Positions 1,853 to 5,377 of a DNA stretch of 12,636 nucleotides are shown in pieces; position 1 is the first letter of the stretch; the number at the start of each line of letters is the position of its first letter. This DNA comes from Bacteroidales bacterium. Its GTDB lineage: Bacteria; Bacteroidota; Bacteroidia; Bacteroidales; NBLH01. Made by a program: the position numbers and the translations under genes. The stretch lies in assembly GCA_027083715.1 (NCBI GenBank), contig JALWNR010000558.1:1-12636 (forward strand), given 5' to 3'. The notes below the pieces were generated by a model. It ran no database searches. It was not told the origin of the DNA and worked only from the letters and a program-made list of their open reading frames with translations.

Positions 1853-2437
1853 ATGAGCAAACAAAAAATAATAATCCTGATATTTGTTTTAACAGCCTTT
1901 GCACAAATATTTGTACCCGCAAAAATGATTTTCGACAGCGAACAAAATATCCGGCAAGGAAATGAATTTTTATTCAGATTACGTCCTGTTGATCCCAACG
2001 ACCCGTTTAAAGGCAAATACATTATGCTTTATTTTGAGCAAAACAGCTTCCCCGTATCAGATATTGAAAAAAAGAAAAGCGGAGAAACCGTGTATGTTTT
2101 ATTGACCAAAGATAAAGAAGGTTATGCACAAATACTATCGGTACAGGAGATACCTCCTATAGGAGAACAGGATTTTATAGAAGCAAATGTTGCCTATATA
2201 AATACTTATGATTCGCTTCTGATAATTGATTATCCTTTTAATAAATACTATATGGAAGAAAGCAAAGCGGCTCTGGCAGAGGATATTTACAGAGACATAC
2301 GTGATAAAAAAACCGCTTTTGCTTCGATATTTGTTAAAAACGGTAAAGCTACGCTTGCAGGTGTGTATATCGATGGTGTGCCGATTGAACAACTGGTAGA
2401 AGAAAAACAAGCTGAACTTGAAAATAAAATTGAGTAG
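1853..2437 (+). CDS. GDYXXLXY-domain protein, C-terminus altered by an intron
   Basis: The gene encodes 194 residues. An N-terminal hydrophobic anchor or signal segment (about residues 5-24) is followed by an extracytoplasmic domain. The signature sits at residues 54-61 (GKYIMLYF), a variant of GDYxxLxY with D to K and the last Y to F. It lies in the usual context DPFKGKY, and a later conserved part reads YPFNKYYMEE (about 127-136). Biochemical function is unknown; the family is typically paired with DUF2157, as here. The last codons are unusual. From position 2429 on, the sequence belongs to the 3' end of a group II intron on the other strand, so Ile193, Glu194 and the TAG stop come from the intron. 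The core domain is complete, so the protein is probably functional. The native C-terminus may have been about 14 residues longer. Confidence 0.82.
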   Translation: MSKQKIIILIFVLTAFAQIFVPAKMIFDSEQNIRQGNEFLFRLRPVDPNDPFKGKYIMLYFEQNSFPVSDIEKKKSGETVYVLLTKDKEGYAQILSVQEIPPIGEQDFIEANVAYINTYDSLLIIDYPFNKYYMEESKAALAEDIYRDIRDKKTAFASIFVKNGKATLAGVYIDGVPIEQLVEEKQAELENKIE

Positions 2438-2465
2438 GTAGAGGGATTACTCCCTTGCCCTCTCA
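2431..2465 (-). ncRNA. Group II intron domain VI with bulged branch-point A
   Basis: On the minus strand TGAGAGG (2465-2459) pairs with CCT-A-CTCA (2438-2431). This gives seven base pairs with a single bulged adenosine at 2435. That A is seven nucleotides from the intron end at 2429, the expected place for the branch point that forms the lariat. The distal part holds a small GGGA-GTAA-TCCC hairpin (2454-2443). Confidence 0.82.
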
Positions 2466-2466
2466 C

Positions 2467-2496
2467 ACCACCACGCATGCTTTCGCACGTGGCGGT
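2467..2496 (-). ncRNA. Group II intron domain V (catalytic hairpin)
   Basis: On the minus strand the 30-nt hairpin has a lower helix ACCGCCACG/CGTGGTGGT, a two-nucleotide bulge on the 3' strand, a short upper helix TGC/GCA and a GAAA tetraloop. A CGC triad at 2494-2492 pairs through the expected central G·U wobble. This is the layout of the group II active-site domain, and the CGC triad points to the IIC type. The helix looks intact, so the ribozyme core may still work. Confidence 0.83.
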
Positions 2497-2535
2497 TTCA
2501 GTTAATAGTTTAACTTTTCGTAATTTAATGACAAA

Positions 2536-2721
2536 TTAAACAAATTTTGCCATCAAATTTGATGTTAAAGCTCGTCCTTGTCCTCCTTCTTCGTTTAATT
2601 GCCCCTCTTTTATCTCTTTTGCTTGGTTTACGTTCTTACGATTGTCGAAAAAGTGAATATCATTCTGCTTGTGTTCTACAAACAAATCAAGCTGATACGA
2701 TATTTCTTGCCAGTGCTTCAT
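2536..2721 (-). pseudogene. N-terminal stub of a group II intron reverse transcriptase
   Basis: The open frame encodes 61 residues (MKHWQEISYQLDLF ... LNEEGGQGRALTSNLMAKFV). The LNEEGGQGRALTSNLM part resembles the segment that precedes the reverse-transcriptase fold in Bacteroidota group II intron proteins, which normally runs on into the AYKxVKxNKGAxGVDGM region. Here a TAA follows at once and domain V begins about 40 bases later, so the RT fingers, palm, thumb and any maturase part are missing. The family assignment is from memory of the pattern and from position inside the intron, after the conserved pre-ORF region. AAGGAG about 20 bases upstream is a weak possible ribosome site. Short AAATTTG-like repeats around 2540-2565 could have served as deletion end points (inference). 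Confidence 0.65.
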
Positions 2722-3148
2722 AAATGAAAATTATTACTGACTGCTCCTTATATTAACTAATTCAGTCCTTCGTCCTGCAAAAAAACAGAACTACTATGAG
2801 CTCTGCTGACTTCTTATAAGCTTTCGCCGATTGTCGCTGCTCGGTTTGTTACTGTTGCAACTGCTTATAAGGTCTCTCGGGATAAGATAATAAACTTTTC
2901 TTTATCCTGCCTGATTTACTTTTGTGGGCTTTACGTTTGAATTTTTGGACGTTCCCAATTCATAGCTCAGCAACCCTCCCAATTAAGCCTTGTATCAGAT
3001 TTAGCTCACAAATAATGTATTTTATAAGGTGTTCGTGATTTACACTACGCTTCAATTCTGTGCGTCAGAACTTCAAGTTTGCTAATGGCTTTACCGAATC
3101 AAGTTTGGCACAGGATTTTCAAATTTGCAGTAAAAGATACTTGCGGAT

Positions 3149-5377
3149 TTAAGGTAATATAATTAACGGTATTTTAACAAATATTTGGGTTCCTAAGTTA
3201 GTTTTACTTTTAATATCGATTGAAGCACCTAATTTATTTACCACTTTATTAACAATTGCTAAACCCAAACCTGTACCGCGGTATAATCGTTCCGTACTTT
3301 TTTCTAATTTCCTGAAAAAATCAAAAATTATATTATACTCTTTTTGATCAATTCCAATTCCAGTATCTTTTATAAAAATAACCAGTTCAAAATCACTGTC
3401 ATTATTGCCAATCTTAAATTTTCTGTTTTCAATTTGAGTATTTCCGTTTGTTTTTGTTAATTTATAACCAATTTCTACTTTTCCTTTTTCTGTATATTTT
3501 AAGGCGTTTTCAAATAAATTATAAACAATATACATAAAAGCTTTAAAATCCGAAAGAATAAATAATCCATCGTTAAAGGGTAAATTAAGAACACAATTAA
3601 CTTTTTCAGCTTTTAGTTTCTTATGATTAACCAACTTATCAAAAGCCGAATGAAATACTAAATTTAAATCAAACAGAGTTTCTAAAAAAACATATTGATC
3701 TGCTTGCAATTTTGATGCATCCATAATGTTTTCAATAAACTCAATTAAATCATCAGTGTTTTTACTTATAATATTAGCATATTGCGAAATTGTTTTGTCA
3801 GCAGATTTATGCTCGGAAAGTAATTGTGCAAAACCCGATATGGCATTCATCGGTGTACGAATTTCATGCGACATATTCTCTAAAAATGCCGTGATTAGGT
3901 TTCTGCTTTCTTCTGCTTTTTTTAATGCAACTTCAAGTTCTGCTGTTCTGTTTTTAACCTTTTCTTCAAGATTTTGGTTTAATTTTTTTAACTTATATGA
4001 CAAGGTTTTCAGCTCTTCTGATTGATTAAGTATTGCATCTTGTTTTTTTATTAATTCTATATTGCTTTGTTTTAATTGTTCTTTTTGTTCATCAAGAGTA
4101 GTGTTCATTGCATTTATTTGTTCATTTTGTAAATGCAGTTCACTGTTTTTTGTCTCAATTTCTTTTTTTTGCCGGGTAAGAATTTTATTTGCTTTTTGTT
4201 TTTGCAAAAAACCGTATAAAATAACTAGTCCAAAAACAGCAGCAACAATAAATCCCAAAACAAATAAATTACGAATCATTCTTTGCCTTTTGGCTTCTTC
4301 TCTTTGAACAGCCTCCTTTTTTTGTTGTAACAACATATCTGCTTGCTTTTCTTTATCATAGTTATACTGATATTCCATAGTAGCTATTCTGGATAAGTTT
4401 TTAGCACTAAAAATACTGTCATTCAATTTCTTGTATAAAACATAATTTTGGTAGGCTTTTTTATAATTGTTTGTTTCTTTATAAATATTTGATAAAAGTT
4501 TGTAAATATCTTTTTGCACAGTTAAAAAATTATATTGCTTAGCTTCCTTCATTCCTTTTACTGCATTATTTAATGCTCTGGAATAATATTTCGTTTCAAA
4601 ATAACATATCCCTAAATCTTTGTATGAAATACAAACCCCTAATTTATAATCAATTTTCTTGTTATAATTTAATGCTTTTTTAAAATAGTTTAATGCTTTT
4701 GTATAATGTCCTGTATTAAGGTAAACTTCTCCAATGTTTATGTATGAATTAGCAATACCTAATTTATAGTCTATTTGTTTATAAAGAGCTAAAGCTTCAT
4801 GATGATATTTTAGAGCTTTGTCTGATTTTTCTAATTTTGCGTTTAAAATACCAAGATTTGTTAAATTACTTGCTATACCTCTTTTATAATTAATTTCTCT
4901 ATTAACTTTTAATGATTTTTGGGTATATTTGAATGCATTTTTATAGTCGTCTTGAGCTTTATATAAAATACCAATATTATTAAGTACTTTACTGATACTT
5001 TTTTTATTACTCGTTTTTTCAGAAATTTTCAGAGCTTGAAAGTAGTATTTCATTGCTTGAGTATAATATCCTTTTACTTTATAATAAACTCCAATAATTC
5101 GTAAACTTTCGGCTTTTCCTGATATAAAATTTAAACTTTCGGCTAAACTCAGAGCTTCCTGAGCATATTTTAAAGATTGTTCCGGTTTAATATAATACAG
5201 TTTGTAAGCAATGTTATTTAATAAAACTACTCTGTTGGTATCTCTTTCCTGATTTTGAATTAATAAGTTTTTGAGGCTGTCAATTGTTGTGTTTTGTCCG
5301 TAAACAGAAAATAGTTCACTTACTATTAATATAATAAGCAGTATTGTGTGCTTTCTTATTTTAATGATAACTTTCAA
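3149..5377 (-). CDS. TPR-containing membrane sensor histidine kinase
   Basis: This 742-residue sensor kinase starts with a signal peptide (about 1-27, ending VYGQ). About seven 40-residue TPR units follow (about 50-320), lying outside the cytoplasmic membrane. Then come a transmembrane segment (about 369-390), a long coiled coil (about 395-495), a HisKA dimerisation domain with phospho-acceptor His504 in NMSHEIRTPMNA, and a HATPase_c domain. The ATPase has an N box at 620-624 (NLFEN), G1 DTGIGI at 671-676 and G2 GTGLGL at 701-706. There is no receiver domain, so it must signal to a separate regulator, and none is encoded nearby. About 20 extra residues (641-662) separate two strands of the ATPase domain compared with the other kinase in this window. 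The start is a TTG at 5377: no in-frame ATG is near, and this start gives a proper signal peptide. The stimulus is unknown. Confidence 0.87.
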   Translation of the reverse strand: MKVIIKIRKHTILLIILIVSELFSVYGQNTTIDSLKNLLIQNQERDTNRVVLLNNIAYKLYYIKPEQSLKYAQEALSLAESLNFISGKAESLRIIGVYYKVKGYYTQAMKYYFQALKISEKTSNKKSISKVLNNIGILYKAQDDYKNAFKYTQKSLKVNREINYKRGIASNLTNLGILNAKLEKSDKALKYHHEALALYKQIDYKLGIANSYINIGEVYLNTGHYTKALNYFKKALNYNKKIDYKLGVCISYKDLGICYFETKYYSRALNNAVKGMKEAKQYNFLTVQKDIYKLLSNIYKETNNYKKAYQNYVLYKKLNDSIFSAKNLSRIATMEYQYNYDKEKQADMLLQQKKEAVQREEAKRQRMIRNLFVLGFIVAAVFGLVILYGFLQKQKANKILTRQKKEIETKNSELHLQNEQINAMNTTLDEQKEQLKQSNIELIKKQDAILNQSEELKTLSYKLKKLNQNLEEKVKNRTAELEVALKKAEESRNLITAFLENMSHEIRTPMNAISGFAQLLSEHKSADKTISQYANIISKNTDDLIEFIENIMDASKLQADQYVFLETLFDLNLVFHSAFDKLVNHKKLKAEKVNCVLNLPFNDGLFILSDFKAFMYIVYNLFENALKYTEKGKVEIGYKLTKTNGNTQIENRKFKIGNNDSDFELVIFIKDTGIGIDQKEYNIIFDFFRKLEKSTERLYRGTGLGLAIVNKVVNKLGASIDIKSKTNLGTQIFVKIPLIILP

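Follow-up and report, generated by a model that had tools for sequence, protein, structure and literature searches.

The window, that is, the whole 12,636-nt stretch of DNA analysed here, carries on its minus strand (2429-3114) what is very probably a dead group II intron of a class-C-type (IIC) lineage of Bacteroidales, truncated at its 5' end and internally deleted. Intron, strand and 3' end are all genuine: this end falls correctly at 2429, and the alignment with a sister copy on another contig of the same genome (C181) runs from 3114. Domains V and VI (2429-2497) match RF00029, a family unlisted in the first whole-window Rfam scan (E up to 1) and found both by scanning 2300-3250 alone and by the genome search. 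These domains score 41.4 bits against a cut-off of 40. A core segment (2765-2848, minus strand) matches RF01998 (group-II-D1D4-1) with 44.6 bits (cut-off 35), and a distal domain I segment (2910-3002, minus strand) gives a partial RF02001 match of 29.5 bits, below the cut-off of 32. With RF00029 and RF01998 both above their cut-offs, the minus-strand group II intron proposed in the first-pass annotation is borne out. So is the anatomy it had described at the 3' end, where 2429-2500 folds with an MFE of -35.2 kcal/mol (z = -5.38, equalled by 0 of 200 shuffles) into a 30-nt domain V hairpin with a GAAA loop and a 2-nt bulge (2467-2496, minus strand) and a domain VI hairpin (2431-2465, minus strand) with a bulged A at 2435, the seventh nucleotide from the 3' end. 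The same short form of domain V was recognised by eye in relatives from G043, G223 and G337 and in the full-length copy L166. Over its last 121 nt the window intron is 87-96% identical to those relatives that are complete over that stretch.

What has become of the reverse transcriptase (RT) is best read against L166, the best full-length relative found (JAUXEM010000111.1, Salinivirgaceae MAG CSMAG_2877; 1911 nt). Its intact RT of 470 aa matches TIGR04416 (393.8 bits, cut-off 300), RVT_1 and GIIM; TIGR04416 indicates only a group II RT, and the lineage is one that we take to be class C (IIC). L166 shares with the window a collinear ribozyme (77% over 110-573, 96% over 563-683), the same domains V and VI and the same RT leader (52%); unlike the window, it has a complete 5' end and an intact 470-aa RT/maturase, and it lacks a 55-nt insert. 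In the window the RT is reduced to 61 codons, as the first-pass annotation had it: the ORF at 2536-2721 (minus strand) is a remnant of the N-terminal leader that stops short of the RT domain. Over residues 1-58 it matches the beginning of the L166 protein with 52% identity, the RT profiles in the intact protein begin at residues 64 (TIGR04416) and 120 (RVT_1), and the stub itself has no match in Pfam or in NCBIfam. Thus, an RT/maturase ORF with RVT_1 and GIIM, as expected of an autonomously mobile intron, is absent from the window. Relative to L166, the window skips ~1193 nt between codon 58 and the final RT codons, so that its description as an RT-deletion derivative holds. The junction (2538-2549, minus strand) lies between what in L166 are 12-nt near-repeats, CAATAGTTTGTT and CAAAACTTGTTT, identical at 8 of 12 positions, and beyond it the C-terminal tail of the RT, LFNLSLNYEKLNY-stop, persists out of frame (2502-2543, minus strand). 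Since three does not divide 1193 evenly (1193 mod 3 = 2), a frameshift stop follows immediately; the clean stop had been taken as a sign of a maintained form, an argument that this deletion removes.

The 5' side departs furthest from the earlier description. In a nine-row alignment the window row begins at column 84, whereas the eight other rows (C181 and seven copies from five genomes) hold 81-82 letters in columns 1-83; the 5' loss is thus an alignment-based result. Because all eight carry these additional letters before the window's start, the 683 bases are not the whole element, and neither the 5' boundary placed at 3111 nor the intactness claimed for both ribozyme ends can be upheld: one end is missing. 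The GTGCC at 3111 was rejected as intron start, being internal sequence in C181, where the intron continues upstream of it to ATGTCAGGCATGG, directly after a hairpin with a T-rich tail. A degenerate 5' end hidden in 3115-3230 was likewise rejected, as similarity did not rise above shuffles for any of five references: when the 116 nt upstream of 3114 were compared with the missing 5' part, 69 to 248 of 500 shuffles did equally well, and the resemblance of the stretch bearing GCAAGTATCT to the expected 5' region, seen with two of the five references, was also not above shuffles. Between the kinase stop and the remnant there is a gap (3115-3148, minus strand) with no recognisable intron 5' end and no reported terminator. 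The window intron therefore offers no complete 5' end, no 5' splice site and no domain I root such as a functional intron has, and this would, to judge from the sequence, make both cis splicing and mobilisation impossible. As a caution, a GTG-like start together with a clean stop mimicked a compact intron here, and only the sister copy revealed that the 5' end was gone.

The surroundings of the relatives differ from those of the window in one further respect. Class C introns prefer terminators as insertion sites, according to the available part of the literature (PMC8919778), which backs the class C label. By eye, intron copies start after a terminator in C181, C436, G043, G223, G242, G337 and G087, and the 5' flank of L166 has a hairpin without a T-run. 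In the window, a terminator scan of 2300-3300 reported nothing upstream of 3111, where an insertion just after an intrinsic terminator would have placed it, and its single site, 2784-2807, lies within the intron.

Base pairing tells the same story of partial preservation. The consensus of seven copies comprises 105 pairs, 51 of which show a compensated change in one sequence or more, and L166, which lies outside the consensus set, keeps 103 of the 104 pairs for which it has both sides. The lost columns 1-83 take with them one strand of 35 of the 105 pairs, the outermost helix included. The window keeps 53 of 60 pairs when its insert is left out; as it stands, it aligns poorly and keeps 55 of 81. 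Elsewhere the figures are 56/69 for C181, 84/99 for the second RT-less copy of G337 (mini2), 95/104 for G195 C62, 98/105 for G173 and 28/28 for G043, and 58/103 for G103, where intron is present only in the first ~160 nt. The decay does not appear old, because domains V and VI and much of domains I-III are well kept.

The insert is a copy of a short dispersed repeat, 55 nt long, in domain I (3003-3057, minus strand; ends ambiguous by ~2 nt), absent from the eight other aligned rows; its core reads TCACGAACACCTTATAAAAT and, further on, TTTGTGAG. The first-pass annotation, which had picked up neither the insert nor the out-of-frame RT tail, had named lesions in domain I as the mark of a dead relic, and the window has them. 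Among 149 genomes of the order the exact repeat pattern occurs in three (19 copies in G074, one in G094 and one in the window genome), and variants are found in stretches of G095, G346, G267 and G174. The window copy is without GTGAGT, and a pattern requiring it has no match in its own genome. As side observations, the repeat takes the form GCGAAGCGATTTCACGAACACCTTAAAAAAT...TTGTGAGTAA at L107, L108 and L110-L126, and the 19 exact-core matches of G074 are often nested in larger repeats; the intron also provides a filled and empty site pair for the repeat, which fixes its ends to ~2 nt.

In the genome of the window (3.94 Mb in 884 contigs, 92.37% complete) the searches found four loci of the lineage, namely the window, C181, C416 and C436. 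The related introns anticipated in the first-pass annotation are thus there, yet all are decayed. With the intron DNA as query, the hits elsewhere were four stretches, spread over the contigs C181 and C416. C181 has complete ends and an RT in broken pieces, the last two of which are 86 and 88% identical to L166; C416 consists of only the last 85 nt of the intron and C436 of only a 5' piece. RVT_1 is found in C181 only, and an intact RT of the lineage was not found in this fragmented assembly beyond the C181 fragments and the window's stub; at 884 contigs and 92.37% completeness, an intact copy could be missing from it. Domain V matches on C325 and C505 were rejected by eye as members of the lineage, as they belong to a different intron type. 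L022 (13-88) and L023 (C505:8369-8443) are domains V/VI of another type of group II intron in this genome, and one of the two lies at a contig end, so that the assembly may lack its full copy.

Beyond this genome, an exact search of genome contigs for the domain V pattern gave 41 loci: 14 in MAG 132-544, 12 in GH36, 10 in Tobar13.5m-G9, two in CSMAG_2877 and one in each of three others. At 34 of the 41 the DNA stops no more than 105 nt short of domain V, as expected if contigs end within the intron, and the same break, again fitting contig ends, is seen at 33 of 36 lineage loci in three other MAGs. L166 is the sole locus of the 41 to match both ends of the window intron. In some genomes the parent lineage would appear to be a retroelement that is proliferating. 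Some part of the window intron is matched in 40 of 393 genomes of the order (two candidates scored per genome); some of these matches cover nothing but the 55-nt repeat or a conserved motif of the core. Among six genomes of the same genus it has no match; two same-genus genomes, G002 and G006, match at domain V with a different query of the intron family.

We thus favour a history in which an RT-coding parent of ~1.9 kb would have inserted between the histidine kinase and GDYXXLXY genes, by analogy with its relatives probably after a terminator. A deletion would then have taken the intron's 5' 81-82 nt, together with the terminator if present, another between the 12-nt near-repeats would have cost the RT gene ~1193 nt and changed its frame, and the 55-nt repeat would have entered domain I, in an order that we leave unspecified. 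The losses and the insertion come from the comparison with relatives, and how they arose we infer. An element of this kind fits the common class of truncated bacterial group II copies and differs from it in nothing essential: in the available portion of one account (PMC4424553), most copies in bacteria have been truncated or inactivated. The window itself accordingly matters little, such truncation being, in the same source, the rule in bacteria (PMC4424553).

The 5' loss could instead date from the insertion itself. Incomplete first-strand synthesis from the 3' exon would give such a 5'-truncated copy; an element so copied would have been dead on arrival, with the RT deletion and the repeat either acquired later or already present in the template. 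The loss on the 5' side only and the exact 3' end are consistent with this, as is C416, which also retains 3' sequence only. However, most relatives follow terminators and none is reported at the window, which suggests a later deletion spanning both terminator and intron end, although this argument is less clear for L166, with its hairpin but no T-run before the 5' end; and C436 is truncated in the opposite sense, with only its 5' piece left, which points to random deletions. On balance we regard truncation at insertion as rather unlikely and a later loss from a complete insertion as the better account.

The genes on either side, for a TPR histidine kinase (stop at 3149) and a GDYXXLXY protein, raise the matter of a role for the host. 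The stop codon of the GDYXXLXY ORF (1853-2437, plus strand) comes from the intron's final bases, 2429-2437, and a T-rich stretch, TTTATTTT, follows the intron's 3' end. The remnant might on this basis have been kept to terminate transcription downstream of the kinase gene or to provide the GDYXXLXY gene with a stop codon, as that ORF ends in the intron's last 9 nt and the very stable hairpins of domains V/VI are followed by T-rich DNA. Such retention is very improbable, however: the terminator scan reports nothing at domain VI, stable hairpins are inherent to the intron, and the GDYXXLXY protein has no match in 30 relatives with which the end of the gene might be compared (and hence no empty site comes from orthologous flanks). 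A decaying intron without such a role remains the better description.

RT-less relatives with complete ends bear on a wider proposal. The genome G337 (a single contig) holds two of them, mini1 and mini2, of 687 and 677 nt (C1:180986-181672 and 82655-83331; L057 687-1373 and L127 656-1332), which share one deletion junction and follow two different terminators; G337 has full-length copies too, one with a 471-aa RT ORF. Homology between the two is confined to the intron and ~11 nt of T-rich 5' flank (81%). Outside the junction, the differences from the three full copies that mini1 and mini2 have in common and that are absent from copy 1350384 number only two, with a gap in that copy at one of them. 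Like the window, these copies belong to the same intron family and have had the RT gene deleted, mini1 keeping 54 leader codons and the last six; unlike the window, they lie after terminators with both of their ends complete, and their junction is a different one. On this evidence trans-mobilised forms may exist elsewhere, and the shared junction of G337 might also reflect independent or repeated deletion, or gene conversion. The G337 copies resemble the ORF-less introns of Thermosynechococcus (PMC2882425) and, if borne out, would represent the RT-less equivalent of that system among class-C-type introns. By titles and the beginnings of abstracts, no paper among the matches listed treats RT-less class C introns of Bacteroidales.

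It is doubtful in the extreme that Bacteroidales class-C-type introns in general give rise to RT-less forms copied in trans by full-length siblings, as G337 might suggest, and that the window is a decayed member of such a set, moved after it had lost its RT. The ORF-less TeI3 of Thermosynechococcus elongatus is like the window in having a single RT-gene deletion with N- and C-terminal remnants, going by the section of the source available (PMC2882425). TeI3, however, has 17 copies with shared breakpoints that are mobile through a driver RT (PMC2882425, same section), whereas the window junction was found once and the 5' end is gone. Across the 393 genomes the window junction has a 0-mismatch match only in the window itself, and at two mismatches a single one, in G001, where nothing matches the intron, so that same-junction copies elsewhere were rejected as candidates; a second copy bearing this RT-deletion junction, as expected of a trans-mobilised form, was thus not found. 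Viral contigs gave no exact match to the junction, and plasmid and phage records gave no match. The least probable view, barely tenable, is that of the first-pass annotation, a maintained RT-less intron mobilised by an RT encoded elsewhere: the intact domains V/VI, the complete-ended RT-less copies in relatives (in G337 two sites with one junction) and the same anatomy in the trans-mobile Thermosynechococcus introns, as far as the text available extends (PMC2882425), speak for it, but the ends are not intact, the 5' end being missing, domain I carries an insertion, the stop is a frameshift, the junction was not found elsewhere and an intact RT of the lineage was not found in the genome.

The family has other short copies. 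G087 has three of ~280-293 nt with the same internal deletion (L136 585-877, L068 1408-1700 and L207 340-620), each retaining the initial portion of domain I as well as domains V/VI. They were rejected as mobile mini-elements, as the 776 nt common to copies 2 and 3 extend ~550 nt into the downstream DNA, of which copy 1 shares 40-53 nt; from these sequences an origin by duplication or recombination seems likelier. The genes near the duplicated stretch that holds two of the copies are presumably Rhs-like, and the 293-nt form has a whole-length match in no other genome among the 393. Finally, G195 carries a further RT-less family member that has both its ends (L137, ~1233-1690), in which a short tandem-like insert stands in place of most of domains I-III.
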